Part shown: positions 23,892-41,037 of the stretch, in pieces | Layout of the letters: every line of letters starts with the position of its first letter | Numbering within the stretch: position 1 is the stretch's first letter | Assembly (NCBI GenBank): GCA_018677555.1 | Contig: JAHHOT010000130.1 | Coordinates: 1 to 51,435 of the forward strand | Reading direction: 5' to 3' | Length of the DNA stretch: 51,435 bases | Origin: Gammaproteobacteria bacterium | Lineage (GTDB): Bacteria > Pseudomonadota > Gammaproteobacteria > Steroidobacterales > Woeseiaceae | Notes under the pieces: model-generated | What the model was told of the DNA's origin: nothing | The model's database searches: none | What the model saw: the letters and a program-made list of their open reading frames with translations, nothing else | Program-made: the position numbers and the translations under genes

Positions 23892-25268
23892 CTAGAAGCC
23901 GGACTGGCGCTGCGAGTCGTCGTACATGCGCGTGAGGAAGTTGCGTATGGCCGGCTCCGCCTCCGTCCGCGTCATTAACTTCTGCTGCTCGAACAGCGTG
24001 GCCATGTCGATGATGGAGCGTTTGCCGTCGATCAGAGACATGATGAAGGTGTAGATCTGTGTTGACATCGCCTGCGTGCGAAACGACTGCGTCAGCGGCA
24101 CCGGTTCCTTGCCGGTGACAATCCAGTCCGGCAATGCAACATGGCGTTTTGGCGGCTTCATTTTTCGGATCTTGCGCGCGGCAAACGAGAACACCGTTTC
24201 AAAGCGGCCGTGCCGGCTGGCCGGCGAACACATGTAGGGAATGACCTCCTCGTGCGTGACCGGCTTGTCGAAACCGCGTTCGTCGACGATGGCCAGCGCC
24301 TCTTCGGGGCTGTAGCAGCGGGCGGCCTCCGGGTGATCGAACGCCAGCGACCCGAAATTGATCCAGCGGCCACCCTCCGCCAGCAGGTTGCCGATGCGCG
24401 CGGCAAACGTCGCAAAGTCCTCGGAGATGATATCGATCAGCCAGGGTGTAATGACGGTATCGAACGCGCCGGCGGCAAACGGCGGACGCAGCGCGTCGCC
24501 GAGCACGAAGTGCAGACCCGGACCAGCCGCGGCGGGTGCCGCGAGCTGCCGTAATACAGCGTAGTCATCGATCGATTTCGGCGCGATCGGAAATTCGTAC
24601 ATGTCGAGGGTTTTCCCCGCGCTTGCCGCCTGCGCAATCAACAGCAGCAGCGGATTGAAATCGCTCGCAAGCGTTGCAGCTGGCGCGAGCGACGTATGCA
24701 CATCGTAGGCAAGGCGACCGGCACCGGCGCCGAGCACGAGCGTCGTGCCGAGGTCGCGCTCGTCGCCCAGGACTGTTTCGATTTGCCGCAGGGACGCCGC
24801 GTTTTCCTCGTCGCCCCAGGACCAGTCCCTGTGCACGTTCGAGTAGTAGGTATTCAGCCCCTGGTCCGGCGGCAGGCGCGTCCGCAACGCGAGATAGGTC
24901 TCGTAGCTTGCCGGGTCCGACTGCACGTCGAACGGCGCAAGCAGTTTGCGCAGGCGGTCGCGGTGTTCTTCCGTGGCCTTCTTATGCTGTTCCAGCCGCT
25001 GCCGCGTCAGCGCGCCAAGGTCGTCGCGCTCCAGTTCCTGCCCGGTTTTCTGTGCACGGTGGGATAACTGCTGAAGCGCAAAGTGCAGCCGATTGCGCCA
25101 CTCACCAAGCGCTGCCTCCGGTTCGGCGAATAACCACGGCATGCCGCTGACCATCGGATACTGCGATTTGCAGGCTTTGCAATGTAACTCACTGCCACGC
25201 GGCTCGAGCGGCGACTTGTCGCAGCGCGGGCAGGCGAGTAGTTCATGCAAAGCGTCGTCGAGCGGCAT
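23892..25268 (-). CDS. N2227-like (carnosine N-methyltransferase-type) SAM methyltransferase with zinc ribbon
   Basis: A 458-residue protein in three parts. First, a Trm112-like zinc ribbon with C13, C16, C30, C33. Second, an N2227/CARNMT1-type methyltransferase: YYSNVHRDWSWGDEEN, then LVLGAGAGRLAYDV for SAM, FDTVITPWLIDIISED, and WINFGSLAFDH as in the eukaryotic enzyme that makes anserine from carnosine. Third, a C-terminal PqqD-like helical segment with IDGKRSIIDM. ATG 25268 fits where the zinc ribbon begins; a GTG at 25316 would add 16 residues. A carnosine-like substrate in bacteria is not established, so the acceptor is unknown. Confidence 0.8.
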   Translation of the reverse strand: MPLDDALHELLACPRCDKSPLEPRGSELHCKACKSQYPMVSGMPWLFAEPEAALGEWRNRLHFALQQLSHRAQKTGQELERDDLGALTRQRLEQHKKATEEHRDRLRKLLAPFDVQSDPASYETYLALRTRLPPDQGLNTYYSNVHRDWSWGDEENAASLRQIETVLGDERDLGTTLVLGAGAGRLAYDVHTSLAPAATLASDFNPLLLLIAQAASAGKTLDMYEFPIAPKSIDDYAVLRQLAAPAAAGPGLHFVLGDALRPPFAAGAFDTVITPWLIDIISEDFATFAARIGNLLAEGGRWINFGSLAFDHPEAARCYSPEEALAIVDERGFDKPVTHEEVIPYMCSPASRHGRFETVFSFAARKIRKMKPPKRHVALPDWIVTGKEPVPLTQSFRTQAMSTQIYTFIMSLIDGKRSIIDMATLFEQQKLMTRTEAEPAIRNFLTRMYDDSQRQSGF

Positions 25269-25344
25269 GGTCGTTCCAGCGGCATTCAAAGATGCTTCAT
25301 AACCCGCCGGGGGCACGCGGGCAAGGACCTCCGTACACCTGGCG

Positions 25345-25381
25345 AAAAAAAACGGCCAGTCGCGGAGGACGACTGGCCGTT
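25345..25381 (-). terminator. Strong rho-independent terminator
   Basis: Perfect 12-bp inverted repeat (arms 25351-25362 and 25370-25381, core CGGCCAGTCG) with a 7-base loop. On the minus strand the stem is followed by eight T residues. It lies 33 bases past the stop of the Tat-exported protein and ends the left operon. Confidence 0.92.
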
Positions 25382-25413
25382 ACTTCCCGGTATTGACGTT
25401 CTACGATCTGCTG

Positions 25414-27039
25414 CTACGTTGGATTGAGGGGTCCAATAGTGCCGCTCACGATCTGCTCGAATGCCGTCAGGCTGTCCCTGAGATTGGCGTCGCCGAGACC
25501 GTGATTCGGGAAGAGCGTTGCGAAGTTTCCTTCCTCGCCGTGTAAAGCCATGTAGTTCAGGATTACGGTGTTGACGAGAAGGTTGACGTTATTCGCCGCG
25601 GGCGTGGCCGCGCGTTGCACCGAGGCGCCGGCATCGAAGTAACCGATCTGCTGATGCACCGCCTGTTCCTCGGGCGTCGCCCCGCGTAGCAGCGCGCGCC
25701 CGGCAGGGTTGAATACCATGAAGAACCCCGCCGCTGTCGAGGAGTTGTCGCTCACCCACTCGCCCTTGCCGCGACCGTCGACCGAGTTGTCGATAGTGCC
25801 ATCGCTCGACAGCGAGCCGTCACTGAAGACGTACATCATCAATGGCGTGCCGATACGCGCCGCGTATTCGATACAGGCGCCCATGCAGCGGCCGGCGCGG
25901 AAGTCCTTCACTTCGCCCTCGGCCCGCGCGCCGCCGTGATAATCGTAACCGCCCATCTCGATGACCGCGGCGCCGGCAAAACCGTTGATCACCAGTTTCA
26001 TCACTGAAGCGGTCTTGCGGAATTCGCTGCCGTCGCGCCCGCCGCCGTTAAATTCGGCATCGGTGAAGATTCCGGTCGGACCGACGATCATCGGGTCAAG
26101 GCCCGGATCGAGTGGCGTGGCACCGAAGCGGTCCGCGATGTCGGCTGATTTGAGGTAGCCGCAGCGCACCATGTCCTTGACGACATCGCTGGCACCGATC
26201 GTCTGACCGGCGTCGACGTTCGTCATTTTCTCCGCGCTGATGCGATAGATCGATTCCATCACTGCCGTCGCGTCCGATGGCCCGAGAATGCCGACCAGTT
26301 GGCCGGTGTCGACCAGGCCGGTCACGTCGCTGGGCCGATCGACCTTTGTAGGACGCAACTCGGGATCCATCATCGCCGCAGGAATCATCGAGTTGCCGCC
26401 GGAGTCGGTATTCTCGCTGCCTGCGAGCGTCAGTATCGAACCGTCGGCGCCCGCGGTCGCGATGCCGTACAGCGGGTTGTGCGGATTGTTGCCGGTGTCG
26501 TTGTCCGAACGCGCGGGAATGATCGCCCCGTTGAGCTGCGCGCCGCGCCCGGCTGACATGCTGGCCTCCATGCCGCGTTTGAATGCGCTGTCGGAATGAA
26601 ACGCGAGGCCGAAATCGGTGTTCGCATAGGGCAACCCGGTAAGCGGGTCGTTGAGGCCCGGCACCATGTCGCCTGGCAGGCCGACTTTCTCGTATCCCGC
26701 GGTACTCAGGAAATCCATTTGTCCGCCCTGCTGGCCGACGAGCACGTTGGAACCGGCGATGTTTGCGCCGCCTGCGAGGTCGAATGCGATGAACGGGATC
26801 TTGCCGGCGCCCGACGTCGCAATGTTGCAGGGATTGGCCAGGAGTGGCTGCAGGTCGCTGGACAGCGCCGCATGGGCCGCGCGCGGATTCGAGAACAGGC
26901 TCAGAATTCCGCCGCCGAGCGTCAGTGCGGAGCCGGTCAGGAAGCCCTGCGAAACGAAGTCTCTGCGAGTAATGGGACGTGCATGATCCGCGTGCCGCAA
27001 CGGGTCATCGTATTTGCGGACGTTTCTTTTCTTAGCCAT
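25414..27039 (-). CDS. Tat-exported DUF1501-like protein
   Basis: A 541-residue protein with a twin-arginine signal: RPITRRDFVSQGF near residues 22-34 followed by a hydrophobic stretch ending in AHAAL. Folded export across the membrane is therefore expected. In the mature part, FIAFDLAGGANIAG, VIEMGGYDYHGG, and MMYVFSDGSLSS resemble the DUF1501 (alkaline-phosphatase-like superfamily) pattern, in which Asp/His residues may bind metal. No CXXCH is present. It is last in a three-gene operon with CXXCH proteins, 28 bases after the LamG gene; this pairing echoes planctomycete cytochrome-DUF1501 pairs. Enzyme function is unknown. Confidence 0.75.
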   Translation of the reverse strand: MAKKRNVRKYDDPLRHADHARPITRRDFVSQGFLTGSALTLGGGILSLFSNPRAAHAALSSDLQPLLANPCNIATSGAGKIPFIAFDLAGGANIAGSNVLVGQQGGQMDFLSTAGYEKVGLPGDMVPGLNDPLTGLPYANTDFGLAFHSDSAFKRGMEASMSAGRGAQLNGAIIPARSDNDTGNNPHNPLYGIATAGADGSILTLAGSENTDSGGNSMIPAAMMDPELRPTKVDRPSDVTGLVDTGQLVGILGPSDATAVMESIYRISAEKMTNVDAGQTIGASDVVKDMVRCGYLKSADIADRFGATPLDPGLDPMIVGPTGIFTDAEFNGGGRDGSEFRKTASVMKLVINGFAGAAVIEMGGYDYHGGARAEGEVKDFRAGRCMGACIEYAARIGTPLMMYVFSDGSLSSDGTIDNSVDGRGKGEWVSDNSSTAAGFFMVFNPAGRALLRGATPEEQAVHQQIGYFDAGASVQRAATPAANNVNLLVNTVILNYMALHGEEGNFATLFPNHGLGDANLRDSLTAFEQIVSGTIGPLNPT

Positions 27040-27067
27040 AACTATTGCCTCGTATCCTTACTCTGGT

Positions 27068-29566
27068 CTACTGCACCAGCGTCACTGCGCTGCCGGTGAC
27101 AGCGGCACATACCGCCTTCGCAATTGCGCGTGTGTCCGGGTTGTCCGGGCTCGACAGCAATCGGTCGATCAGGTTATCCGGACGAACTCCGTTGGTCGTG
27201 AAGAAACCGAGTTCGTCCTGCACCGTCACGAAGTCCGGCTGTGTCTGAATCGCGATGCCCATCGCGCTGTCGATCAGCGGTGTGATGATCTCGTTTCGCG
27301 CTGCGCCGGCATAAGCGGCAGCTGGCGCCTGGTTGAAATCGAAATTGTTGAAATACGCCGCCGCCATCGCCGCGTCCTCGACCAGCGCGTTGCAGTACTC
27401 GATAGCGAGTTGCGCAACGGCAACCTGGTGCGATGACAGGAACGCCTGAGGGTCCTCGATAGCGGGCAACGACTGACGCAGATTCTGAAAGGTCATGTCG
27501 ACAGCAGTCGTCTCCGGATCGACACCGGTAACGGCGGCGAGCGTGGCATTGATCTCGTCGAACGTCCGGATACCGATGCGCTGTGCCTGCGGCAGATCCG
27601 ACGCGGTAATTACCAGCGGCGGATCGTCCGTGCGCACGTACGATGCAGTGCCAAGCAGGTCGAAGGTCAGGAAGAACTGGTCGTCGTCCGGGCCCTGCTC
27701 GAGCGGCACGATGGTGCCGAGGTCGGACAGGGGCTGGCCCAATTCAGCGAACAACGATGCGCTCAGCGTCTGGTCCAGATTCGCATAGGCCTGGCTGATC
27801 GGCACTTCCGCGCCGTTGATGCCGATTCGCATGCCCTGCAGCGGAATCCCTTCCGGTTGCTGCGCAGCGTCCAGCGTAATGAAATGCGGCTTGTCGAAAA
27901 GGTAGCTGTAGCTGTCGTACTGCGCTACCTCGAACAGGATGTGCGCAGACGGCACATTGATGATGTCTTCGATGCCGAACAGCAGGTAAAACTTCTCGCC
28001 AACGCCGACGTCGAAGTTCTGCACGATCTGTGCCGGTGTCAGCGCGCGATTGTGTACGGCGACCAGGCGCAACGTGCCTGCAAACGAACCGTCGTTGGAT
28101 GCCTCGTTGCCCAGTACCAGGGCAAACGTATCCTGCCAGTCGACCAGCGAACCGGTCGGAATCGGATCCGTTTGCGTGACCAGCTGGCCATTGACGTAAA
28201 TGCTGCGGCCTTCGACCGGGCTGTACACCGCGACGACATGCTGCAAGGTTGCCTGCAGGACTTCATCAGCGTCCGGCGTAGACAGCTGCGGATCGCCGTT
28301 CAGTCCGGTTTCCGTGCTGCGGTGCCGGAAGTCGTAGTTGTAAAGCGTTTGTTGCAGCGTGAAGTTCCGCGCGGTGTCGCCCGCCGAGTAGCTGACGATA
28401 CGCGCCATCTCTTGCGTGACATTGGCTGGCGCAACCCAGGCTTCGATCGTGTACTCGCCGGTCGCCTGGACCAGGTCGTGCAACTTTTTGCTGGCGGAGG
28501 TTGTGCCCTGTGCCTTGCCGTCACCGATATTGATGCCCCAGCCGCCGACCCACTCGACTTCGCCCGACAGTGTCAGGTCGATAGCAGGTTCGACACCACT
28601 CGTGTCGAATGCCGTGAGGCCGGTTCCGGTCTTGAATTCCCACAACGCGATCTGTGAGGACTCGAAGCGATTGCCGCCGGATGCGACCGTCCCATCGATG
28701 ATGCGCAGCGCCTTGCTGTTCACGAGGGTCGGATCGAACGGCAGCAACGGAATGGTTGCGGCGAAATCGGTGATTGCCTGCTGCATGTCACCAGCGTCGG
28801 TCGGGCAGCTGTTGGTCCAGCAGTTGTGGAACTCGTCGCGCAGACGGACGACAAAACGCGAATCCGCCGGGGTGTTGATGTCCATCCTCGACTTCGCAGC
28901 GTCGAAAGCCACATTGGCGTCCGCTTCACCGAAGAACGGGCTCTGAGCCGTCGGTGCCGACGATGAATGGCAGCCTGCGCAGTAAGTTGTGAGGTATGGG
29001 CCGTGCACCATGGCGGCAAAGTTCGCAACGTCCGCGTTCACGTAGCTCAGGCTCGCGCCGGGATCGACCGGCGTCGGTGCCTCGAGCGCGATCTGGCGGC
29101 CACCGCCCGCAGCCGATCCGGACCAGTTTTCGATCCAGGTCGTCATGATGTCGGCGCAGGCCGCGTCGTCGGTCAGCCAGCAGTTATGTCCGCTGCCGAC
29201 CTTGGAAACCAGCCGGGAATCGGATGGTTGTGTGAGATCGACGACGCCGTTCGCTGCTTCGTAGGCAAGGTTGATGTCGTCGTTACGCGCGAACATCGGA
29301 TTCTGGCCGGTGGTGTTGTTGTGGCAGCCGCCGCAGCGGTTGCTGGCCTGCACGTTGTCCCAGACGTTCAGCTTGAACGCCTGTATGTCACCTGTCAGCG
29401 CCGGCGGACCGTTGTAGTTCGCTGTGGGCGTCACGCTGGTGACCGGGTTGTCGGCCGTCTGCGCGCCGCCGCCGCAGGCGGTCAGCACGATTAAACTCAG
29501 TCCGGTGCCGAGAACGATTTTCATGTTACGGGCCCCGGTCATCACACAATTCATTAGCTTGTACAT
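27068..29566 (-). CDS. Lipoprotein with two cytochrome c-like modules and a LamG domain
   Basis: An 832-residue protein. The start ATG 29566 has GGGAGG eight bases upstream. Lipobox LTAC gives lipidated C31. Two similar modules follow, each with CXXCH (CGGCH 78-82; CAGCH 196-200), a shared SRxVxKxxxxHNCW-like segment and a closing cysteine; HNCW may supply a sixth heme ligand. A LamG/concanavalin-like jelly-roll spans roughly 310-490 (ASKKLHDLVQATGEYTIEAWV, IYVNGQLVTQTDPI). The C-terminal 300 residues are predicted beta-rich then helical and are not recognised. This suggests a surface or periplasmic heme protein that binds a carbohydrate or polymer. It lies between a CXXCH protein and the Tat-exported protein. 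Confidence 0.78.
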   Translation of the reverse strand: MYKLMNCVMTGARNMKIVLGTGLSLIVLTACGGGAQTADNPVTSVTPTANYNGPPALTGDIQAFKLNVWDNVQASNRCGGCHNNTTGQNPMFARNDDINLAYEAANGVVDLTQPSDSRLVSKVGSGHNCWLTDDAACADIMTTWIENWSGSAAGGGRQIALEAPTPVDPGASLSYVNADVANFAAMVHGPYLTTYCAGCHSSSAPTAQSPFFGEADANVAFDAAKSRMDINTPADSRFVVRLRDEFHNCWTNSCPTDAGDMQQAITDFAATIPLLPFDPTLVNSKALRIIDGTVASGGNRFESSQIALWEFKTGTGLTAFDTSGVEPAIDLTLSGEVEWVGGWGINIGDGKAQGTTSASKKLHDLVQATGEYTIEAWVAPANVTQEMARIVSYSAGDTARNFTLQQTLYNYDFRHRSTETGLNGDPQLSTPDADEVLQATLQHVVAVYSPVEGRSIYVNGQLVTQTDPIPTGSLVDWQDTFALVLGNEASNDGSFAGTLRLVAVHNRALTPAQIVQNFDVGVGEKFYLLFGIEDIINVPSAHILFEVAQYDSYSYLFDKPHFITLDAAQQPEGIPLQGMRIGINGAEVPISQAYANLDQTLSASLFAELGQPLSDLGTIVPLEQGPDDDQFFLTFDLLGTASYVRTDDPPLVITASDLPQAQRIGIRTFDEINATLAAVTGVDPETTAVDMTFQNLRQSLPAIEDPQAFLSSHQVAVAQLAIEYCNALVEDAAMAAAYFNNFDFNQAPAAAYAGAARNEIITPLIDSAMGIAIQTQPDFVTVQDELGFFTTNGVRPDNLIDRLLSSPDNPDTRAIAKAVCAAVTGSAVTLVQ

Positions 29567-29579
29567 TGTCGATGCCTCC

Positions 29580-30806
29580 CTACTGGCCCATGCAGTAGAC
29601 GGCCGCCTCGGCGAACGTCTGTTTCATGCGGTAACCGGCCTTGAATGAGGTGACCATGGTCGTGACCTGGTCGCGATCGGCCTGGTTCTCGGGTTCGCGC
29701 AGGCAGACCGCGCGAAAGACCTTCTTCACCTGGCAGTTGGCGAACGCGTCGCTGTTGCCGAGTTCCTCGCCGAGCGACTTGGCGCCAGCGCCGCTGCCCG
29801 GCAGCGTCGGATCCCAGCCGAGGAACTGGTTCTGTCCCGAACGCCAGTAATTGCTCCAGCTGTCGTCCGGCGTGCGGAAACCCGGCTCGAAGTTGGCGTC
29901 GTTGTTGAAGTACTTCGGCTGCACGGTGCCCTGCGTGTATTCGATCGAGCCCGTGGTCTCATTGAAGTTGTAGTACGCGAAGGCCTGTGCCATCGGGTCC
30001 ATGCCGCTGTGGCAGCCAATGCAGTTGTTCAGGAAAAGGCGGCTGTCGCCGCCGGGGCTGCGGCTGACGTCCTGGCGAATTCGATCCGGCGGCCGCTTCA
30101 CGTCATGCACCTGCTCCATGTCGTTGCACAGGTGGTTCAACATCGTGAAGCGGAACATCGCCCGGTTTGTGCCGGCGACGAAAAACGCCTCGGCGGCGGC
30201 GCGCGTGGTCATGGCGCCGGCCGTAGCAGTCGATGGCAGGCCGGTTACGGCCGACTGGGTGGTTCGATTCAGCCCCGTCAGCATGTCCAGGCCGTTGGCC
30301 TCGAGCTGCTCAAAGTGATCGTTGTTGTTGTTCGAGTACGCGGGCAGGCCGAGCGAAGCGTCACCTACGTACAACAGGTCAGCGGACAGCAGCGTGTTGA
30401 AAGGCTCGTCATCGCGAACCATGCCGACGACCAGCGCAATGTAGTCGTTCAGTGGTACGAACACGTTCTCGTCGCGGTTGGTCCACGGCGCCGCGAAGTT
30501 CTTCAGCGTCACGTTATAAAAACTGGGGTTGTCCATGGCCGTGAACGCAGCCGCCATCGGGTTGTTGTTCTGACCCGGATCGACGTCCGCCTCCATCGAT
30601 TGCAACACGGTCTCGGTCGGCGGTACGCCCGCCAGCCGGTCGTGAATGCGTTTGGCCTGTTCCCTGGGCCCGGCTTCGGCAACCGAAATCGCTCCTGCAC
30701 AAAGAAAACCCAGTGCGGCAAGCCGGAGAATCCATCCAGGATTCTCACGCTGGCTCGCGCTTTTCGTTATTGTCCACGTCCTGTTTTCCATAACACTTCT
30801 GCTCAT
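29580..30806 (-). CDS. Exported mono-CXXCH protein
   Basis: A protein of about 408 residues. The N-terminus contains a hydrophobic stretch (LRLAALGFLCAGAISVAEAG), so it is exported. One heme-binding motif, CIGCHSGMDPMAQAF, lies at 262-266, with CXXCH followed by MDP as in DUF1588/DUF1592-type cytochromes. Downstream cysteines (NCQVKKVFRAVC) may form a disulfide. The exact start is uncertain: ATG 30806, ATG 30791 or an upstream TTG (30821) are all possible and no ribosome-binding site is convincing. It is first in the left operon, with the next gene starting 13 bases downstream. Confidence 0.72.
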   Translation of the reverse strand: MSRSVMENRTWTITKSASQRENPGWILRLAALGFLCAGAISVAEAGPREQAKRIHDRLAGVPPTETVLQSMEADVDPGQNNNPMAAAFTAMDNPSFYNVTLKNFAAPWTNRDENVFVPLNDYIALVVGMVRDDEPFNTLLSADLLYVGDASLGLPAYSNNNNDHFEQLEANGLDMLTGLNRTTQSAVTGLPSTATAGAMTTRAAAEAFFVAGTNRAMFRFTMLNHLCNDMEQVHDVKRPPDRIRQDVSRSPGGDSRLFLNNCIGCHSGMDPMAQAFAYYNFNETTGSIEYTQGTVQPKYFNNDANFEPGFRTPDDSWSNYWRSGQNQFLGWDPTLPGSGAGAKSLGEELGNSDAFANCQVKKVFRAVCLREPENQADRDQVTTMVTSFKAGYRMKQTFAEAAVYCMGQ

Positions 30807-31962
30807 TGCCAATACAATCAAACAACGTGCTAAAAAACTGCGGCCGGGCAGCGGTCTACTAACCGATACTCGTCGCGTGAGAACTGGAGGGGATAGAGTG
30901 TTCGCGTAGATACGCTACGACTTGTCCACCTTACTCCTGGCAGTTCTGCTGTCTCTTAGCGGGTGACAAAGTCACCGGCCCAAGATCGGTTGCCATGCGT
31001 GGCCGCTGAATACCCTGTCGGCGACCATGCCTTTTCAGACGTCCGTGTTGTTAGAGGTTCTTCCCTGAACAATCTGCAACTGTCAGCAGGTGGACTATCT
31101 TCCAAGCTAGTGTGCACTCAGTTCGCATAGAAGTCCGTGAAAACACTCACATTCGTCAAGAACTTCGAGAACGTCGTACACGTTCGCATTCGATCTGCCA
31201 GTGATAAAGCAAGTGCTGTGCCAGCCTGATCCAATAATCGATTTTTGTTCAGAATTGTTAGGCCGGTCAAAACCTTACGTGCAAGAACCGCCGCCGGTTA
31301 AATCACGATATATGTCAAGCACTTGTCGGTGCATTCGTACACTTGTGGGCGTAATTGACCTGAAACGCTGACCAGGCGCGGCTTCTGCCATGTCGCGGAA
31401 AGCAGACACAATCGCTTCATTGCGACACCGCGAAAAAATTTTCTGAATTTTTTTGTTGGAACGCGTCACAAAATTTCCTTGCAGATTAATGCCGAAACGT
31501 GCGCGCGTTGTTTTTTGGCAAACGCGATGGAACAAAATTGCGCGCGCGATCGTTTTCAAACACGCGAAAACATTGAGTGTGGCAGCGTAGTTGACATATC
31601 GGATGTTTAGTTAAATGGATTTCAGCGTCTCGTGGCGTACTTTGTCGTACTTTCGAGACATTACATTGCAAATTTATATTTCCTAGACTGATGCTCAGGT
31701 TAATGCAGCATGTGTGCGCGCGACGATGAGTGAAGCGTCGCAGAGACAAAGGCCGGATCCAGCCAGTGGCTTCGCCCGACCCTCCAGCCACTGCCGGTTT
31801 AGTGTGATCGCGTTAACGGTAAGAAGTGTGCGTTAAGTTCAATATTGCTGGCTACTCAATAGTGGAGTGATGCGCACTGATTTTGTGGGACGTCTGCAGG
31901 GCATGGAGTTGCTGCAGCGGGTAGGGATACCCGCAGCTCACACAGGAATTGAGGTGCAGGTC
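30807..31962. other. 1.15-kb noncoding divergent promoter region
   Basis: No convincing gene is present. Composition is visibly richer in A and T than the flanks, with runs such as GAAAAAATTTTC (31431-31442) and TTTTTTTG. Several small inverted repeats occur: GGTGAC-AAA-GTCACC at 30962-30976 and AGTGGCT/AGCCACT at 31765-31792 with a 14-base loop. A TTGACA at 31591 is a possible -35 for rightward transcription, but no matching -10 could be fixed. GAGGTG at 31951 is the ribosome-binding site of the right operon's first gene. The length suggests several regulators or a nucleoid protein acting on two divergent operons. Confidence 0.5.
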
Positions 31963-34677
31963 ATGGATATGTTTTCACGGCAGGTCATGGATGAATGTCT
32001 GCGGGCAGCGGCGCGATGGACTGCGCCGCTGCTCGCGTTTGTGCTGGTTGCGGGCTGCTCCAGCGGCGAGGGCGTGCAACTGGGGACCGGACAGGATCCT
32101 GATCCGGTCATCGTCGATTTTCCAATCGCTTACGTCAAGGCACCGTTGCCGGTCGATGACAACGGGGATGTCATCCAGACGGATGCGCGCGAATTGATCA
32201 CCTTCAATTTCGGCGCGGATCTCTATTATCGCGACCGGGCGTCGCCGAGTTCCGAGGACATCAATGTCACCGAACGGGTCACCGGCGGCCTGGGCGCCAT
32301 TCGCGACGTCGAGATGTCATACGACGGCAGCACTGTCTTGTTCGCCATGCGTACCCCGGTCGACCTCAATCTCGATCTCGATGACGAGGATCAACCGACC
32401 TGGAATGTCTGGGAGTACGTATTCGAAACCGATACGTTGCGCCGCGTCATCTCCTCGGACCTGTCAGCCGAGATCGGCCACGACATCGGACCCCACTACC
32501 TGCCGGATGGCCGCATCATTTTTTCCTCGACCCGCCAGGTCCGCTCAAACGCGGTGCTGCTCGATGAGGGCAAACCGCAGTTCGAGGCGCAGGACGAGGA
32601 CGAGAACGAGTCCGCATTCCTGTTACACGTGATGAACGCCGACGGTACCGGCATAGAGCAGGTGTCGTACAACCAGAGTCATGACTACGACGCGACGGTG
32701 CTGGACAACGGCCAGGTCGCATTTTCCCGCTGGGATAATGCTGTCGCCAACGACGCGATCAATCTCTATCGCATGAACCCGGATGGGTCCAACCTCGAAT
32801 TGCTGTATGGCCAGAACAGTCACGACACCGGCACGAACGGCGAGACCATTCAGTTCCTGCAGCCGCGACAGCTCGAGGACGGCAGAATAATGTCGATTAT
32901 CCGGCCGTTTACCGACACCTTCGGCGGCGGCGACATCGTCGCGATCGATACGCCGGTGTACGTGGAAAATACCCAGCCGAACATGGACAACCCGGGTATG
33001 AGCGGCCCGGCGCAGGCGGCAGCAACGATCAATGCGGTTTCGACGGAAACCGGCGTGCCGTCACCCGGCGGGCGCTACAGCTCGGTTTACCCGATCCAGG
33101 ACGGCACCGGACGGCTGATGGTCAGCTGGAGCCAGTGTCGGCTGACCGATCCGCCGGATCCTAATGCAGATCCGAACAACCCGCCGCAGCCCGTGTACTA
33201 CCCGTGTACGAGCGAGAATCTCGCCGATCCGTTGCTGATCGAGGCCGAACCGCTATATGGCATCTGGATTTACGATCCCGCCGACCGCACGCAGCAGCCG
33301 GTCGTCGTTGCGGAACAGGGGTTTATCCATCCGGAGGTTGTGTCGGCAGATCCTCGCGCGCTGCCGCCGGTGATCCTGGATTCGCAGGACCAGTTTGACG
33401 ACGATCCGAACCTGGTCGCGGAAAATGCCGGCGTCATCAGCATTCGCAGCGTCTATGATTTCGATGGCGGCGCTGTCGCCGATATCGCGGCGCTGGCCGA
33501 TCCGGCGCAGACCATGGCCGACGAACGCGAAGCGCGCTTCCTGCGGATCGAAAAAGCCGTATCGATGCCCGACGACGATGTGCTGGATTTCCGGGACACC
33601 GCCTTTGGCCGTATTCGCGCTCTTGGAATGCGCGAGATCGTCGGCTATTCGATGATCGAGCCTGACGGCTCCGTGATGGTGAAAGTGCCGGCCAACGTAG
33701 CGCTGGCGATCAGCGTGCTCGATGCCAGCGGCCGCAGGATTTCGCCGCGGCACAATAACTGGTTACAGCTGCGTCCGGGACAGCTCCTGAAATGCAACGG
33801 TTGCCACGACCCGGCGAGCGGCATGTCGCACGGACGCTACGACGCGTTCGCCAGCGCCTGGGCCGGCGCAGCAACGGCATCGATCCCGTTCCCGAATACC
33901 GACCCGGCGTTGTTTGTCGGGGAAGTGGGCGAAACCATGGCCGAAGTCCGCGCGCGCGTAAGCTGTGCCACGGACAACTGTTCTTCCATCGACCCGTCGG
34001 TCGATCTCGAATACGACGACGTGTGGACCGATGAAGTCGCCGCCGGACGTGCCGCCGATGACAGTTTCGATTACTCGTATGTCGACCTGACAACGGCGCC
34101 GCCGACTACGACGGGCTGCATGACCCAGGGCTGGTCTGCGAACTGCCGCATCACGCTCAACTACGAGACGCACATACACCCGCTCTGGGCAGCAGAGCGG
34201 CCTGTTCTGGACCCGGTAACGGGGCTGCCGGTCATCGACCCGGTGACCATGTTGCCGGTAACGAACAACTGCACCAATTGCCATACACCGGTTGACTCTG
34301 CAGGCGCTGCGATGGTGCCTGCCGGTCAGCTGGATCTCACGGATGGAATCTCGCTGGACGAAGCAGATCATTTCAAATCGTATCGTGAGCTTCTGTTCAC
34401 AGATTTCGAACAATTTGTTGACGCTAACGGGGTGTTACAGGATGTAATGGTGCAAACCGGCGTGGATGTCGATGGAAACCCGATTTTCTCGCCGGTTGAC
34501 GTGAATCCCTCTATGAGCGCTGCGGGCGCTAACGCATCGCCTGTCTTTCTCGACAGGTTCGAAGCCGGTGGGACGCACGACGGGTATTTATCTGACGCGG
34601 AGAAAAAATTGATTGCGGAATGGTTAGATGTCGGAGCGCAGTATTACAACAATCCCTTCGACGCTCCGATTAATTAG
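31963..34677 (+). CDS. Hydrazine-synthase-alpha-like propeller lipoprotein with two CXXCH motifs
   Basis: A 904-residue protein from ATG 31963, which has GAGGTG six bases upstream; the frame is open to GTG 31867 without support. Lipobox VAGC gives lipidated C32. The first 550 residues contain TolB/PD40-type propeller repeats: IRDVEMSYDGSTVLFAMR, HYLPDGRIIFSSTRQ, VMNADGTGIEQVSYN, MNPDGSNLELLYG, typical of the HzsA-like middle domain. Two heme c motifs, CNGCH (611-615) and CTNCH (770-774), lie in the C-terminal part. Real hydrazine synthase is not implied; HzsA-like domains are widespread. First gene of the right operon; the next gene starts inside its 3' end. Confidence 0.78.
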   Translation: MDMFSRQVMDECLRAAARWTAPLLAFVLVAGCSSGEGVQLGTGQDPDPVIVDFPIAYVKAPLPVDDNGDVIQTDARELITFNFGADLYYRDRASPSSEDINVTERVTGGLGAIRDVEMSYDGSTVLFAMRTPVDLNLDLDDEDQPTWNVWEYVFETDTLRRVISSDLSAEIGHDIGPHYLPDGRIIFSSTRQVRSNAVLLDEGKPQFEAQDEDENESAFLLHVMNADGTGIEQVSYNQSHDYDATVLDNGQVAFSRWDNAVANDAINLYRMNPDGSNLELLYGQNSHDTGTNGETIQFLQPRQLEDGRIMSIIRPFTDTFGGGDIVAIDTPVYVENTQPNMDNPGMSGPAQAAATINAVSTETGVPSPGGRYSSVYPIQDGTGRLMVSWSQCRLTDPPDPNADPNNPPQPVYYPCTSENLADPLLIEAEPLYGIWIYDPADRTQQPVVVAEQGFIHPEVVSADPRALPPVILDSQDQFDDDPNLVAENAGVISIRSVYDFDGGAVADIAALADPAQTMADEREARFLRIEKAVSMPDDDVLDFRDTAFGRIRALGMREIVGYSMIEPDGSVMVKVPANVALAISVLDASGRRISPRHNNWLQLRPGQLLKCNGCHDPASGMSHGRYDAFASAWAGAATASIPFPNTDPALFVGEVGETMAEVRARVSCATDNCSSIDPSVDLEYDDVWTDEVAAGRAADDSFDYSYVDLTTAPPTTTGCMTQGWSANCRITLNYETHIHPLWAAERPVLDPVTGLPVIDPVTMLPVTNNCTNCHTPVDSAGAAMVPAGQLDLTDGISLDEADHFKSYRELLFTDFEQFVDANGVLQDVMVQTGVDVDGNPIFSPVDVNPSMSAAGANASPVFLDRFEAGGTHDGYLSDAEKKLIAEWLDVGAQYYNNPFDAPIN

Positions 34678-35416
34678 AGGGATCGCGGTGCTGGTCGCGT
34701 TGCTCGCCCAGTCCGCCATGCCTGCGACGGCCTATGCCGCCGGCGAATACAGGACGGTGTCCGTAGCGGATCCGTTTCTCGAACTGCGCACGGGGCCGGG
34801 CCGCGGCTACCCTGTGTTTCACGTCGTCGACCGTGGCGAAACCGTGGAAGTCATCAAGCGTCGCACCGATTACTTCCTGGTGCGCACCGACCGCGGCAAG
34901 GAAGGCTGGGTGGATCGCGACCAGATGGAGCTCACCATCGGACCCACCGGTGTGCAAACCGTTTTCGCTGCCGCGACCCAGCAGGATTTCACCAACGCGC
35001 GGTGGGAAATGGGCCTCCTCGCGGGCGATTTCGGTGGCGCGAACATCGTTTCGCTGTACGGCGGGTATTCGCTCAACCCGAATGTCTCCGTAGAGGTATG
35101 GGGTTCACAGATTTTGGGAAATTTTTCGAACGGCTGGATGGGCAGTGTTAACGTCGTTCATGAGACCTGGCCGGAATGGCGGATTTCCCCGTTTTTTACG
35201 CTCGGCACCGGAGTAATACATACCCAGCCGAAATCCACCATCGTTCAGGGTGAAGACAGGACCGATCAGATCGCTCACGTAGGCGCCGGTTTCCGCATTT
35301 ACGCAACGCGCCGTTTCATACTCAGGGCGGAATACAAAAGCTACGTGGTGTTCACGAGCCGCGACGACAACGAGGAAGTAGAGGAATGGAAAGCCGGTTT
35401 CGCTTTCTTCTTTTAG
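34628..35416 (+). CDS. Exported SH3b domain plus outer-membrane barrel-like protein
   Basis: A 262-residue protein overlapping the previous gene by 50 bases. A signal sequence (about residues 14-38, ending TAYAAG) is followed by an SH3b domain: VADPFLELRTGPGRGYPVFHV and VRTDRGKEGWVDRDQME. The rest, about 110-262, is strand-rich and ends in Phe (AGFAFFF), resembling an eight-strand outer-membrane barrel. SH3b domains often bind peptidoglycan, so this may link the barrel to the cell wall. GGAATGG precedes ATG 34628. Overlap with the next gene is 31 bases, indicating coupling through the operon. Confidence 0.75.
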   Translation: MSERSITTIPSTLRLIRGIAVLVALLAQSAMPATAYAAGEYRTVSVADPFLELRTGPGRGYPVFHVVDRGETVEVIKRRTDYFLVRTDRGKEGWVDRDQMELTIGPTGVQTVFAAATQQDFTNARWEMGLLAGDFGGANIVSLYGGYSLNPNVSVEVWGSQILGNFSNGWMGSVNVVHETWPEWRISPFFTLGTGVIHTQPKSTIVQGEDRTDQIAHVGAGFRIYATRRFILRAEYKSYVVFTSRDDNEEVEEWKAGFAFFF

Positions 35417-36072
35417 CAGTACTGCTGCAGGCGTTCGCGCTGAGCGGTTGTGCGGCTACGAAGAACCTGTTCGGCATGGGCAAGAAGGAATCTGCACCGG
35501 CGCCGATAGAGGTCCCGGACCAGGTGATCGATCCCCAGGTCGAGCGGCGCGACATCAAGGAGCCCGCGATCGACACCGAGGACTTCGAGATCGGTGCCTT
35601 CGCCGGCATCCTGTCCATCGAGGATTTCGGCAGCGATGCCGTTTACGGCATGCGGCTCGCTTATCACGTCACCGAGGGGTTTTTCGTGGAAGGCACTGCG
35701 GCACAGTCGGAGGCCGGGCTTACCAGTTTCGAGATTCTGAGCGGCGGCGCGCCAATTTTGTCTGACGACGAACGAACCTATACCTACTACAACCTCAACG
35801 TCGGCTATAACGTGCTGCCGGGTGAATCGTTTATCGGGGACCAGCGAGCCTACAACAACAGCCTGTTCCTGATCGCCGGCCTGGGGTCGACCCGGTTCGC
35901 CGGTGACGACCGGTTCAGCGTGAATTTCGGCTTCGGCTACCGGTTCGTGCTCAACGATTCTGTCAGCTTGCGGCTCGATTTCCGCGACCACCTGTACGAC
36001 ATCGATCTTCTGGGAGAGGAAAAGACCGTGCACAACCTCGAAGGAACGCTGGCGCTATCGGTTTTCTTCTGA
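35386..36072 (+). CDS. Outer-membrane beta-barrel lipoprotein
   Basis: A 228-residue protein. A lipobox at ALSGC gives lipidated C22. An acidic linker (about residues 35-66) leads to a barrel-like domain from EIGAFAGILS through LAYHVTEGFFVEGTAA, YNLNVGYNVLPGE, FGFGYRFVLND and a terminal VFF. The pattern matches the outer-membrane beta-barrel (TIGR04565-like) family often found beside SH3b-barrel proteins. The start overlaps the previous gene by 31 bases. It likely acts in the same envelope complex; the exact job is unknown. Confidence 0.75.
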   Translation: MESRFRFLLLAVLLQAFALSGCAATKNLFGMGKKESAPAPIEVPDQVIDPQVERRDIKEPAIDTEDFEIGAFAGILSIEDFGSDAVYGMRLAYHVTEGFFVEGTAAQSEAGLTSFEILSGGAPILSDDERTYTYYNLNVGYNVLPGESFIGDQRAYNNSLFLIAGLGSTRFAGDDRFSVNFGFGYRFVLNDSVSLRLDFRDHLYDIDLLGEEKTVHNLEGTLALSVFF

Positions 36073-36121
36073 GGCAGCAATCACGGAAGAGGGCGCATTG
36101 CGCCAGGCTTGGAGAATGGAC

Positions 36122-36358
36122 ATGAACACAAGCAAATTTTCACGGATGTTACTGGCTATGGCAGTCCTGGCGAGCCTGTCGGCTTGCAGCGGCATCGAGC
36201 CCTGGGTCAAGCCGTACGAACGGGACCGGCTGGCAGACCCGATCATGTTCCTGGACGGGGACCCGGTGTCGACGGCTTATATTCAGCACGTATTCGAAGC
36301 CCGTGAAGGCGCACGAGGCGGCGAGGGTGCGGCAGGAGGCGGCTGCGGTTGTAACTGA
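36122..36358 (+). CDS. DUF4266 lipoprotein
   Basis: A 78-residue protein with signal and lipobox (LSAC, lipidated C22). WVKPYERDRLADPIM and YIQHVFEAREGARGG followed by a C-terminal GGGCGCN are the DUF4266 signature; the terminal Cys pair may bind metal or cofactor. GGAG is seven bases before ATG 36122, so it is preferred to the earlier ATG 36116. DUF4266 genes are usually followed by DUF3570, as here. No thioredoxin-like or ApbE gene is adjacent. Confidence 0.87.
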   Translation: MNTSKFSRMLLAMAVLASLSACSGIEPWVKPYERDRLADPIMFLDGDPVSTAYIQHVFEAREGARGGEGAAGGGCGCN

Positions 36359-36375
36359 GCCGCAGGTTTGTCGCG

Positions 36376-37512
36376 ATGCACTGCTATAGCAAAAAGACCA
36401 TTCTTCTCCTGGCGCTGCTCCTGGGCGGGCAGTCCGCGGTGGCCGGCGTATTGCCCGATGACCGGACGGACTTTTTGTATCACCGCTACGAGGGCGGCGG
36501 CGTGCTTATCGACGGCCCGTCGGTACTGGTGCGCAAGAAAGTCGGCAAGAGTGTTTCCTTCGTCGGCAACTACTACGTGGATAGCGTGAGCTCGGCGTCG
36601 ATTGACGTGGTAACGACCGCCAGCCCGTACAGCGAAGAGCGCAAGCAACACTCGCTGGGTATGGATTACCTGCGAGGCAACACGACGATGACACTGGGTT
36701 ACACGAGCAGTGTCGAGAGCGATTTCGATGCGACCACGTACAGTATCGGCATCAGTCAGGATATGTTCGGCGACCTCACCACCCTGTCGCTCAGCTATGC
36801 TTACGGTGACGACATCGTCGGGCGATCCGACGACCCGTTGTTCGAGCGTGAGAACACCCGCCAGCACTACGGCGTCGGGCTGACGCAGATCCTGACCCGC
36901 AATCTCATTACCTCGCTGAACTTTGAGACCATTACCGACGAGGGATTCCTGAACAATCCGTACCGCTCCGTGCGCTACCTCGATTCTTCGACCCCGATCG
37001 GCTACAGCTTCGAACCGGAATTGTACCCGGGCACCAGGACAACCAACGCGATCGGGCTGCGTGCGCGGTACTACCTGCCGTGGCGCGCCGCACTGCAGAC
37101 CGAATACCGATTTTTCGATGACACCTGGGACATTCGCTCGCATACCGCGGCGATTTCCTACACGCATCCGTGGCGCGACTTCACCTTCGAAGTGAAATAC
37201 CGCTGGCACGATCAAACCGGCGCGCATTTTTTCAGCGACCTTTTCGACCGCGCGGAAGCCACCACGTTCCGCGGCCGCGACAAGGAACTGAGCCCGCTCA
37301 CCAGCCAGACCGTCAAAATGTCGGCTGCCTACGAGTTTCTCGACGATGGCTGGAGCTTCCTCGACCGGGGGTCGGTCACACTGGCGGTAGATCTTCTGCA
37401 CGTCGACTACCACGACTTCCGCGACATCCGCGGCAGCGAGCCACCCGGCACGGAGCTGCTGTATCAGCTTGATGCGTACGTCTTCCAGCTGTTCTTCTCC
37501 TTCTGGTACTAG
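36376..37512 (+). CDS. DUF3570 outer-membrane protein
   Basis: A 378-residue protein with a signal peptide (residues 6-23, ending SAVAG). VLPDDRTDFLYHRYEGGG at the mature N-terminus, strand-rich repeats and aromatic-terminated strands (LFFSFWY) support a beta-barrel of DUF3570 type. It starts 17 bases after the DUF4266 stop and closes the right operon. The family is often paired with DUF4266 and predicted to work at the outer membrane; function is unproven. Confidence 0.87.
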   Translation: MHCYSKKTILLLALLLGGQSAVAGVLPDDRTDFLYHRYEGGGVLIDGPSVLVRKKVGKSVSFVGNYYVDSVSSASIDVVTTASPYSEERKQHSLGMDYLRGNTTMTLGYTSSVESDFDATTYSIGISQDMFGDLTTLSLSYAYGDDIVGRSDDPLFERENTRQHYGVGLTQILTRNLITSLNFETITDEGFLNNPYRSVRYLDSSTPIGYSFEPELYPGTRTTNAIGLRARYYLPWRAALQTEYRFFDDTWDIRSHTAAISYTHPWRDFTFEVKYRWHDQTGAHFFSDLFDRAEATTFRGRDKELSPLTSQTVKMSAAYEFLDDGWSFLDRGSVTLAVDLLHVDYHDFRDIRGSEPPGTELLYQLDAYVFQLFFSFWY

Positions 37513-37610
37513 TGTCACCCGCCATCTGAATCCGCTATTCCGTCTGCATCGCGACCTTGCGGCGCTGCTGCGACTATAATCACACCCGTTCTGGTCATCA
37601 GGGGAGTGGC

Positions 37611-38054
37611 ATGGGTCGGCTGGTCGGCATTGCGCGTCGCGAGACAAAGCGTGCACCAATGGATGAATTGGAGGTCGCGGAAATCAGCACCGAGACCGGT
37701 GTAGCCATGGATTCCCGCGGCAAACGGGGCAATCGCCAGGTGACCGTACTGTCCGCCGATGTGTGGAGCACGGTCTGCAACGAACTCGATAGCGAAATTC
37801 CCTGGACCATCCGCCGTTCCAACCTGCTGGTACAGGGCATCGGGCTGCCGCAGCGCGCCGGTGACCTTATCGACATTGGCGATGTGCGCCTGCAGGTAAT
37901 GACTGAAGTCGATCCCTGCTCGCGTATGGACGAGCAGTGCCCGGGTCTCACGGCCGCGCTGGGTCCAGACTGGCGCGGCGGTGTCGGCTGCAAGGTGCTG
38001 TCGGGTGGCACCGTGCGTATCGGCGACAGGGTCTCCGTGCACAGCGCGGAATAA
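37611..38054 (+). CDS. MOSC-domain protein
   Basis: A 147-residue protein with the MOSC (molybdenum cofactor sulfurase C-terminal) domain. NRQVTVLSADVW, RRSNLLVQGIGLP and the sulfur-carrying Cys in VDPCSRMDEQCPG are the typical elements. GGGGAG lies five bases before ATG 37611. It starts just after the DUF3570 gene and is followed by lemA two bases after its stop. A TATAAT at 37575 is a possible -10 element, but no -35 was found. Sulfur carrier or cofactor-related function is presumed. Confidence 0.86.
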   Translation: MGRLVGIARRETKRAPMDELEVAEISTETGVAMDSRGKRGNRQVTVLSADVWSTVCNELDSEIPWTIRRSNLLVQGIGLPQRAGDLIDIGDVRLQVMTEVDPCSRMDEQCPGLTAALGPDWRGGVGCKVLSGGTVRIGDRVSVHSAE

Positions 38055-38056
38055 TC

Positions 38057-38614
38057 ATGTTTGCGCTGTCGGCAGTTCTCGTTGTCGTGGCCGTCGGGCT
38101 GGCGTTGATGTACAACCGGCTGGTGCGCGAGCGCAACCGCGTCGACTCCGCATGGAGTGACATCGATGTGCAGTTACAGCGACGCTACGATCTTATTCCG
38201 CAACTCGTGACGGCCGTCGACCAGTATGCCGACTACGAACGCGCAACGCTGGAGGCGGTCACGTCATTGCGAGCGAGCGCTGCCGAACTCACCGGTGTCG
38301 CCGCCCGCGGCGAGGCAGAGAACGAGCTGGCCAGCGGCGTTTCCCGGCTCATTGCATTGGCCGAAAAATACCCCGACCTGAAGGCCAGTCAGAACTTCCT
38401 GCAGCTGCAGAAAGACCTGATAGAAACCGAGAATTACCTGCAGTTTGCGCGCCGTTTCTACAACGGCTCCGTGCGCCAGTACAACACACGGGTGGAATCG
38501 TTCCCGGACAATGTGATCGCCGGCCTTTTCGGATTCGGTCAGCGTGAATTTTTCCAGAAATCCTCCGATGATGTTGCCAACGTGCCGCTGGTCGACCTGG
38601 GCAGCGTCGAATGA
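38057..38614 (+). CDS. lemA: LemA family protein
   Basis: A 185-residue protein with one N-terminal TM helix (residues 2-19) and a four-helix bundle. NRLVRERNRVDSAWSDIDVQLQRR is the family hallmark, with RRYDLIPQLV and ENELASGVSRLIALAEKYPDLK (residues 90-111), NYLQFARRFYN and FPDNVIAGLFGF. LemA proteins are widespread with no established biochemical role. It overlaps the DUF2207 gene by four bases, a common pairing. Confidence 0.94.
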   Translation: MFALSAVLVVVAVGLALMYNRLVRERNRVDSAWSDIDVQLQRRYDLIPQLVTAVDQYADYERATLEAVTSLRASAAELTGVAARGEAENELASGVSRLIALAEKYPDLKASQNFLQLQKDLIETENYLQFARRFYNGSVRQYNTRVESFPDNVIAGLFGFGQREFFQKSSDDVANVPLVDLGSVE

Positions 38615-40305
38615 AACGTGTTGCCGCGTTGTTGCTCGCCGTGATCCCCACCGCGGGACTGGGCGACGAACGCATCCTGGATTTTCACAGCGATATCGTC
38701 GTCATGCAGGACGGAACACTAGAGGTCACGGAGTCGATTCGCGTGCGCGCCGAGAACCGGCAAATTGTTCATGGCATCTATCGCGACTATCCGACGCGCT
38801 ATACCGACAGGTTCGGCAATACCGTGGAAGTCGAGTACGAACCGCTTGCAGTTCTGCTGAACGGCCAGCCCGAGCCGTACCACTCGGAGAAGCGTGGCAA
38901 CGGCGTGCGTACCTACTTCGGCTCCGAAAACAAGGTCGTCGGCTATGGCGAAAACACCTACCAGTATCGCTACCGCGCCGGCCGCATGCTGGGTTTTTTC
39001 GACGAACACGACGAGTTGTACTGGAACGTGACCGGCGTCGGCTGGGGATTCCCGATCGACAGCGCAAGCGCCGCGGTGAGATTGCAATTTGCAGTCGAGC
39101 CTGAGGACATCGAAGTCGTTGCCTACACCGGTCCCGAAGGAAGCAGGGGCCGGGACTACGAAGCACGCGTCGGCAATGACGGCACGGCAGTGTTCCGCAG
39201 CACGGAGGGTTTGCCGCCGTTTGCGGGGCTCACGATCGTCGTGATGTGGCCCAAGGGTTTTGTGCAGGCACCGACCGCGTCCGAGCGGTTCGCGTGGCTG
39301 CTGTCGGACAACGTCAATCTGCTGTTTGCGCTCGGCGGACTTCTCGGGCTGTTCGGCTGGTACATCCCGGTGTGGAAACGCTACGGCAAGGACCCGGCGC
39401 CGGGGGTCACGTTTCCGCGCTACGAACCGCCGCGCGGATTTTCGCCGGCATCCCTGCGCTACATCGACAGGATGCATTACGACAACACGGCGATGACGGC
39501 CGCCGTCGTCAATCTTGCGGTCAAAGGCTATCTGTCGATTACGGAGGCCGATGGCGTGCATACCCTGCGAAAAACCGACCCGGGGCCGCAGGCCGCGGAA
39601 CTGGCGACGGGCGAAAGGCAGTTGTACAAAGGTCTGTTCCGCAGCGGCGCGGAAATCGCCCTCGAGAACGAGAATCACAAGGTGCTGGGCGGCGCACGCA
39701 GCGCGCACCGGAGGTCCCTGCGGCAGGACTACGCAAATCGCTATTTCATCACCAATGGGAAGCTGAATTTTCCTGGCGTGCTGATCGCTCTCCTGGCGTC
39801 GATCATTGCCGTCAACGTCGGTGGTGGCGCAACTTTCCTGGTGATTGCCTCGATCGTTGCGATGGTCATCGTGGTTGTCGTGTTTGCCTACCTGATGATG
39901 CGACCGACCGGCCTCGGACGGAAGGTGCTCGACGAAATGGCCGGGTTCACGGAATACCTGGAAATCGCGGAAAAAGACGAGCTGAACCTGCGCAACCCGC
40001 CGGAAAAAACGCCCGAATTGTTCGAGAAATACCTGCCGTTCGCGCTGGCAACGGGCGTCGAGCAGCAATGGTCGGAGCGTTTCGAGGCGGTTCTTGCTGC
40101 CGTTCGCGGCGAAGATGGTCGCGGCTACCGTCCTGCCTGGTACAGCGGCAACTGGGACAACCAGAGCCTCGCGGCTACGACCAACAGCCTCACCAGCGAC
40201 CTCGGCGGCGCCATCAGTTCGTCCGTGTCGCCGCCCGGTTCCTCCTCCGGCGGCGGCGGTTCGTCGGGCGGTGGTGGTGGCGGCGGCGGTGGCGGTGGCT
40301 GGTAA
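38611..40305 (+). CDS. DUF2207 membrane protein
   Basis: A 564-residue protein. A signal peptide (residues 1-17) is followed by the DUF2207 domain: RILDFHSDIVVMQDGTLEVTE, IYRDYPTRYTDRFGN and YWNVTGVGWGFPI. A TM segment near 230-250 and a pair at about 390-430 separate a cytoplasmic part. The C-terminus is a Ser/Gly-rich low-complexity tail ending GGGW, normal for the family. The role is unknown, but it is regularly encoded with LemA. The ATG start lies within the lemA stop (ATGA). Confidence 0.9.
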   Translation: MKRVAALLLAVIPTAGLGDERILDFHSDIVVMQDGTLEVTESIRVRAENRQIVHGIYRDYPTRYTDRFGNTVEVEYEPLAVLLNGQPEPYHSEKRGNGVRTYFGSENKVVGYGENTYQYRYRAGRMLGFFDEHDELYWNVTGVGWGFPIDSASAAVRLQFAVEPEDIEVVAYTGPEGSRGRDYEARVGNDGTAVFRSTEGLPPFAGLTIVVMWPKGFVQAPTASERFAWLLSDNVNLLFALGGLLGLFGWYIPVWKRYGKDPAPGVTFPRYEPPRGFSPASLRYIDRMHYDNTAMTAAVVNLAVKGYLSITEADGVHTLRKTDPGPQAAELATGERQLYKGLFRSGAEIALENENHKVLGGARSAHRRSLRQDYANRYFITNGKLNFPGVLIALLASIIAVNVGGGATFLVIASIVAMVIVVVVFAYLMMRPTGLGRKVLDEMAGFTEYLEIAEKDELNLRNPPEKTPELFEKYLPFALATGVEQQWSERFEAVLAAVRGEDGRGYRPAWYSGNWDNQSLAATTNSLTSDLGGAISSSVSPPGSSSGGGGSSGGGGGGGGGGGW

Positions 40306-40394
40306 CCGGGCAATTAATGGTGGCAGGGGACGCCGAGGAACAATAAGATTTCGCTTCTGTCCGAGAATCCAGACCCCGCGAAAATGAGCGCCCT

Positions 40395-41036: not shown

Positions 41037-41037
41037 C

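Follow-up and report, generated by a model that had tools for sequence, protein, structure and literature searches.

The window analysed here is the whole 51,435-nt stretch of contig JAHHOT010000130.1 (C9) from an 82%-complete gammaproteobacterial genome (assembly GCA_018677555.1), the nearest named relatives of which are members of the Woeseiaceae and other gammaproteobacterial metagenome-assembled genomes (MAGs). It contains a divergent pair of operons, P3-P2-P1 on the minus strand and P4 to P8 on the plus strand, separated by a 1.15-kb intergenic region (Table 1). An earlier reading made from the letters of this DNA without database searches (the sequence-only reading) had described eight exported products, five heme motifs, divergent operons, a large intergenic region and a strong terminator, and all of these were present, with all eight open reading frames (ORFs) recovered and the five CXXCH motifs distributed as one in P3, two in P2 and two in P4. 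Export signals were assigned to each protein by eye and by lipobox and twin-arginine translocation (Tat) patterns rather than by a signal-peptide predictor, and family assignments were made with Pfam and NCBIfam. The eight-gene extent was confirmed apart from one missed member of the conserved left block, a methyltransferase gene (MT) which adjoins P1 in 36 of the 57 GTDB loci with enough flanking sequence and also adjoins paralogous P1 genes.

Table 1. Genes, predicted regulatory elements and motifs of the locus (window coordinates).
Feature	Position	Strand	Description and basis
MT	23892..25316	-	Trm112-like zinc ribbon and class I SAM methyltransferase; Pfam Trm112p 1e-5, CARME 6e-8
Intrinsic terminator	25351..25381	-	3' of P1; 13-bp stem, 8 GC pairs, T8 tail; strong
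P1	25414..27039	-	Tat-exported (RR motif); possibly alkaline-phosphatase-superfamily fold (predicted)
P2	27068..29566	-	Lipoprotein, LamG domain, two CXXCH; Laminin_G_3 3e-22
P3	29580..30821 (likely start 30806)	-	Exported, mono-CXXCH; distant DUF1585/DUF1588/DUF1549 type
Dyad GTGAAAACACTCAC	31137..31150		GTGA-N6-TCAC, 3' of sigma-54 site; conserved footprint in 14 intergenics
Sigma-54 promoter TGGCACAGCACTTGCT	31208..31223	-	Into P3-P2-P1; exact TGGCAC-N5-TTGCW match
Block ATATGTCAAGCACTTGTCGG	31310..31329		Candidate activator site; 88% conserved in 14 intergenics
Upstream activator-like site 1	31391..31408		Dyad TGTC-N10-GACA
Upstream activator-like site 2	31643..31660		Dyad TGTC-N10-GACA
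Block TGTGATCGCGTTAACGG	31803..31819		Upstream of P4; 95% conserved in 14 intergenics
P4	31963..34677	+	HzsA-like lipoprotein; beta-propeller, HZS_alpha middle domain (2e-13), two CXXCH; start candidates 31867 and 31963, ATG 31963 likely
P5	34628..35416	+	SH3 domain and small outer-membrane barrel; SH3_3 6e-11, OMP_b-brl 9e-4
P6	35386..36072	+	Lipoprotein, outer-membrane barrel; TIGR04565 2e-46, above cut-off
P7	36098..36358	+	Small lipoprotein, C-terminal CxC; DUF4266 5e-22
P8	36376..37512	+	Predicted 16-strand outer-membrane barrel; DUF3570 1e-34, AlphaFold2 (AF2) model
Flavinylation-like motifs in P8	36580..36624	+	DSVSSAS (residues 69-75) and DVVTTAS (77-83); predicted outer loop

Scanning of GTDB genomes with P4 yielded 80 loci from Woeseiaceae, Steroidobacteraceae, Thiogranum, Thiohalobacter and MAGs labelled Chromatiaceae or Pseudomonadales, the carriers being marine and sediment bacteria of many kinds. 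All 55 complete eight-gene loci keep the order P1-P2-P3 (minus) and P4-P8 (plus), with P5 and P6 listed as swapped in one only through sorting of open frames by stop-to-stop start. This synteny rules out chance clustering of the eight genes. Among 274 gammaproteobacterial genomes P1 was found in 35, P4 in 39 and both together in 32 (Fisher p ~1e-31), the MAGs among the genomes being incomplete. The sequence-only reading had treated the genes as one system and had suggested comparing their order across genomes; its proposal is well supported by the invariant order and orientation and by the co-occurrence of P1 and P4. Homologues carry two CXXCH motifs in P2 (63/63), one in P3 (73/73) and two in P4 (75/81), and these near-constant numbers indicate that the motifs are not due to chance. 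The Tat RR motif of P1 (58 of 60 homologues), the C-terminal CxC of P7 (67 of 69) and the aromatic C-terminus of P5 (75 of 77) are similarly conserved. In genome G093 (L249, 9281-9793) the place of P4 between P3 and P5 seems to be taken by a small lipoprotein bearing a CSRSGCH (CX4CH) sequence, and at L109 (17000-18009) a second P5-P6-like barrel pair lies 3' of a complete locus.

Independent occurrence of the two operons, which the sequence-only reading had named as evidence against a single system, was observed in part. P4 is present without P1 in 7 of the 39 P4 genomes and P1 without P4 in 3 of the 35 P1 genomes, and the left and right modules are unlinked in five genomes (G102, G133, G254, G260 and G271). 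In genome G195 all genes are co-directional, with ApbE encoded between P1 and P4. The window genome also holds two more P3-P2-P1-MT sets (on C27, L208 11-8821, and on C197, L209 21-9615) and genome G008 holds another (L210). Each of these paralogous sets begins with genes for a TPR/SPOR protein, the C-terminal half of which is barrel-like, and for a small lipoprotein, the set on C27 being preceded by a five-CXXCH cytochrome as well; together they constitute a second, undescribed envelope gene set. Because the paralogous sets lie beside other envelope genes, the left module is seen to be a unit that partners at least two envelope modules.

The right operon, P4 to P8, very probably encodes an expanded version of the flavinylation system made up of ApbE, thioredoxin, DUF4266 and DUF3570. 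Flavinylation of a DUF3570 protein by ApbE has been demonstrated experimentally by Méheust et al. (2021), and the usual DUF3570 neighbours are DUF4266, for which the CxC was pointed out, thioredoxin and ApbE (PMC8238504). Neither a thioredoxin gene nor apbE lies within the window locus. In 20 of 68 GTDB loci, the distant ones, a gene for a TlpA/ResA-like thioredoxin separates P6 from P7, and ApbE is encoded beside P4, P8 or P1 in distant loci (12 fetched GTDB stretches and others). Unlinked orthologues of both occur in the window genome: an ApbE on C52 shares 42-58% identity with the locus ApbEs, compared with ~27-37% for the other two ApbEs of this genome, and a thioredoxin on C30 matches the locus thioredoxin at 52%, with 180 bits versus 85 for the next. 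Among 60 relatives, 35 of the 36 genomes with P4 have the C52-type ApbE, as do 3 of the 24 without it (Fisher 5e-12), and P8 is retained in two of these three (G036 and G038). This functional link between ApbE and P4 holds independently of gene order. The unlinked C52 ApbE gene also adjoins a LemA gene. A canonical thioredoxin-DUF4266-DUF3570-ApbE locus lies on C97 of the same genome (L116, 9456-12417), and its DUF3570 motif is TGST rather than SSAS. The sequence-only reading could match the combination to no described pathway, which is right in the strict sense, but its DUF4266/DUF3570 half is a described one (PMC8238504). In the literature DUF3570 or DUF4266 was named in one paper, and no description of the eight genes together was found.

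The AF2 model of P8 (pLDDT 88) has sixteen long strands and matches porin-type barrels in the PDB (E ~1e-7). Connections 1, 3, 5 and so on between strands are long (mean ~12 residues) and connections 2, 4, 6 and so on are short (~4), the pattern to be expected if the odd connections are outside; the motif loop at residues 74-84 is connection 3 of the model and is probably placed outside or folded into the pore. In place of two canonical [S/T]GA[S/T] motifs the window P8 has SSAS and TTAS. The family pattern is D-x-x-[ST]-[SG]-A-[ST]-x-D-V, in which Gly at the third place of the motif is rare whether or not ApbE is linked and SGAS is confined to a minority of loci (L071, L136 and L140, for example). 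Loss of the Gly as a result of ApbE loss was ruled out by the occurrence of SSAS in loci where ApbE is linked. Replacement of Gly by Ala in another ApbE substrate left ~50% of flavinylation (PMC12052999), and the noncanonical motif consequently weakens but does not refute flavinylation of P8; by analogy the variant may still be usable.

Alignment of 14 intergenic regions revealed six short conserved blocks in otherwise unconserved DNA, and this restriction to short blocks suggests protein-binding sites rather than structured RNA. No Rfam match to a structured RNA or riboswitch was obtained in the 1.15-kb region, and sigma-70 promoters were no more frequent there than expected (three found versus four expected). 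Of 46 related intergenics, 44 carry an exact match to the sigma-54 site directed into P3-P2-P1, versus 10 of 4000 shuffles. The GTGA-N6-TCAC dyad usually lies 58-76 nt from this site. In 39 of 44 loci there is a TGTC-N10-GACA dyad 182-185 nt upstream of the site, and 37 of 44 have a further copy of this dyad at a distance of more than 250 nt. The combined sigma-54 and TGTC-N10-GACA pattern occurs three times in the window genome and not at all in a reversed control; the copy on C39 is 5' of a predicted beta-helix lipoprotein gene with a prsR equivalog nearby (L279, 2785-4173 and 5977-7353), and that on C15 is 5' of an exported methyltransferase-like gene (L278, 3513-4424). The prsR of the window genome scores 705 bits against TIGR02915 (cut-off 502.6). 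The PrsK-PrsR/sigma-54 regulon of PEP-CTERM genes, described by Haft et al. (2006, PMC1569441), has a 17-nt motif ending in TTTACA that precedes the sigma-54 site by 32-92 nt, at ~63 nt as published. The present region resembles that regulon in its large intergenic, exact -24/-12 promoter and upstream conserved sites, and in the PrsR equivalog encoded near another copy of the pattern, but differs in its best-conserved dyad, which reads TGTC-N10-GACA, lies at 184 nt and is not the motif ending in TTTACA. The candidate activator block between dyad and promoter reads ...TTGACA on the promoter strand, ~88 nt from the sigma-54 site. PrsR is no more than a lead as activator of the left operon. Of the three paralogous left modules, two lacked the canonical sigma-54 pattern in the 5' stretches checked, and one showed a partial match.

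Among the products of the left operon, P1 had been called DUF1501-like. None of 28 homologues matched Pfam DUF1501 (PF07394) or any other Pfam family and there was no PDB sequence match, so membership of DUF1501 was rejected; true DUF1501 genes exist elsewhere in the window genome. The AF2 model of P1 (pLDDT 76) has Foldseek top matches that are nearly all of the alkaline-phosphatase superfamily, alkaline phosphatases and sulfatases, at weak scores (E >= 2e-3, TM ~0.2); its predicted fold may thus weakly resemble this superfamily, the one to which DUF1501 belongs. P3 appears from its sequence to be distantly related to DUF1585/DUF1588/DUF1549 proteins: PSD2 was matched with E<0.1 by 24 of 29 homologues, the best E being 2e-5, and the window P3 scores 16.3 bits against a cut-off of 25.8.

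Gene content, synteny, co-occurrence, conserved motifs and conserved promoter architecture lead us to favour, with moderate confidence, a flavin, heme and thiol electron-transfer complex at the outer membrane built from two modules. The recurrence of a left-type partner set with another heme-bearing envelope module was counted in its favour, and of the two functions offered by the sequence-only reading, electron movement gains from the ApbE, thioredoxin and DUF4266 partners, whereas for polymer degradation there is a LamG fold only. In such a complex the C30 thioredoxin and the CxC lipoprotein P7 would pass periplasmic reductant to flavin mononucleotide (FMN) on the P8 barrel, to which the FMN groups would be attached by the C52 ApbE, and electrons would presumably flow from there to the hemes of P4, with the P5 and P6 barrels as scaffold. 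The putative heme proteins P3 and P2, together with Tat-exported P1, would form a periplasmic or cell-surface partner exchanging electrons with this conduit and possibly acting on a substrate, and the left operon would be switched on by sigma-54 RNA polymerase and an enhancer-binding activator, perhaps PrsR. Several observations weigh against this interpretation. The modules are separable, the P1 fold match is weak, and the P8 motifs are noncanonical both here and in the majority of loci, even where ApbE is linked. The outer placement of the P8 loop was deduced by counting strands, and the loop is modelled with low confidence. Five hemes spread over three proteins are too few alone for a long heme wire, and the cluster has no gene for an inner-membrane electron donor. 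A more specific form, put forward tentatively and with considerable doubt, is a conduit in which ApbE would attach flavin to an outer loop of the 16-strand barrel through a relaxed D-x-x-[ST]-S-A-[ST] motif and electrons would pass, either across the outer membrane or outside it, to the HzsA-like protein and other small c-type cytochromes; if true, this would be a route of extracellular electron exchange without a multiheme wire.

The right module might instead be a redox-assisted assembly or secretion station in which thioredoxin, the CxC protein and the barrels mature P1, P2 and P3 and place them at the surface. Thioredoxin, the DUF4266 CxC protein and barrels are present, P2 and P3 have many conserved cysteines besides CXXCH, and the two modules co-occur even when unlinked; but seven sampled genomes have the right module without the left, the left module has other partners, and thiol-based maturation needs no dedicated ApbE, all of which makes this explanation an unlikely one.

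A somewhat lower probability still is given to a periplasmic or surface oxidase or reductase of a nitrogen, sulfur or organic substrate, with P4, or P1 with P3, as catalyst and the remaining proteins draining electrons. The P4 profile matched only 5c2v in the PDB (chain A, 2e-16), and as in this hydrazine synthase alpha subunit, propeller segments, a middle domain and a C-terminal heme region can be aligned, including the first heme motif. We take Tyr591 of HzsA to be the residue four positions after the first heme His, and Cys303 to be a zinc ligand; the P4 family has a conserved Ser at the former position and a residue other than Cys at the latter. Nor are hzsB and hzsC found next to P4, the neighbours of which are P3 and P5 in complete GTDB loci. 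With active-site positions and partners differing in this way, P4 was ruled out as a hydrazine synthase, and the same differences count against catalysis by P4 more generally, although HZS-like enzymes have been proposed to be a broad family acting on other substrates (PMC10732223) and P1 may share the superfamily fold of hydrolases. A polymer-degrading surface system, with P2 binding glycan through LamG and P1 as the hydrolase, draws on that LamG domain, on the weak alkaline-phosphatase/sulfatase likeness of P1 and on the sigma-54/activator pattern 5' of the beta-helix lipoprotein gene, but is very improbable, as the conserved block encodes no CAZyme, SusC/D or TonB receptor and the five hemes and the flavin and thioredoxin partners are left unexplained.

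Beyond P8 (window 37557-41637), genes for MOSC, LemA, DUF2207-like, rhomboid and LysE-like proteins follow in most Woeseiaceae loci, and elsewhere in the window a Sigma-70 family (ECF-type) sigma factor (15711-16418) precedes an unannotated 440-aa ORF (16450-17772).

To our knowledge DUF3570/DUF4266 flavin systems are widespread and without known function. The present locus gives them a constant group of heme partners together with a sigma-54 promoter, and the flavin site suggested in an outer-membrane barrel opens their function to experiment. HzsA-like proteins, which are puzzling outside anammox bacteria, are linked by this locus to a defined gene set in abundant sediment bacteria such as Woeseiaceae.

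Several known systems bear comparison with this locus. Planctomycete-type DUF1549/DUF1585/DUF1588 cytochrome proteins pair with DUF1501/DUF1552 proteins, and P3, a distant member judging by its sequence, is likewise paired with P1, but P1 has no DUF1501 match and P3 falls far under the gathering scores. Porin-cytochrome conduits of the MtrCAB type, reported in sediment Woeseiaceae (PMC12175321), share an outer-membrane barrel and exported c-type cytochromes with this locus, in which only mono- and diheme proteins are encoded, flavin and thiol carriers are predicted, and no homologue of MtrA, MtrB or MtrC was matched. The system of Méheust et al. shares DUF3570 and DUF4266 with its CxC, and thioredoxin and ApbE as partners in the distant members. 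The locus described here differs from it in that thioredoxin and ApbE are unlinked in the window genome, the ApbE is of a separate type (~31% to the C97 ApbE), the P8 motifs are SSAS and TTAS, and an HzsA-like diheme protein (P4), an SH3-barrel protein (P5), a TIGR04565 barrel (P6) and a divergent left operon are added.

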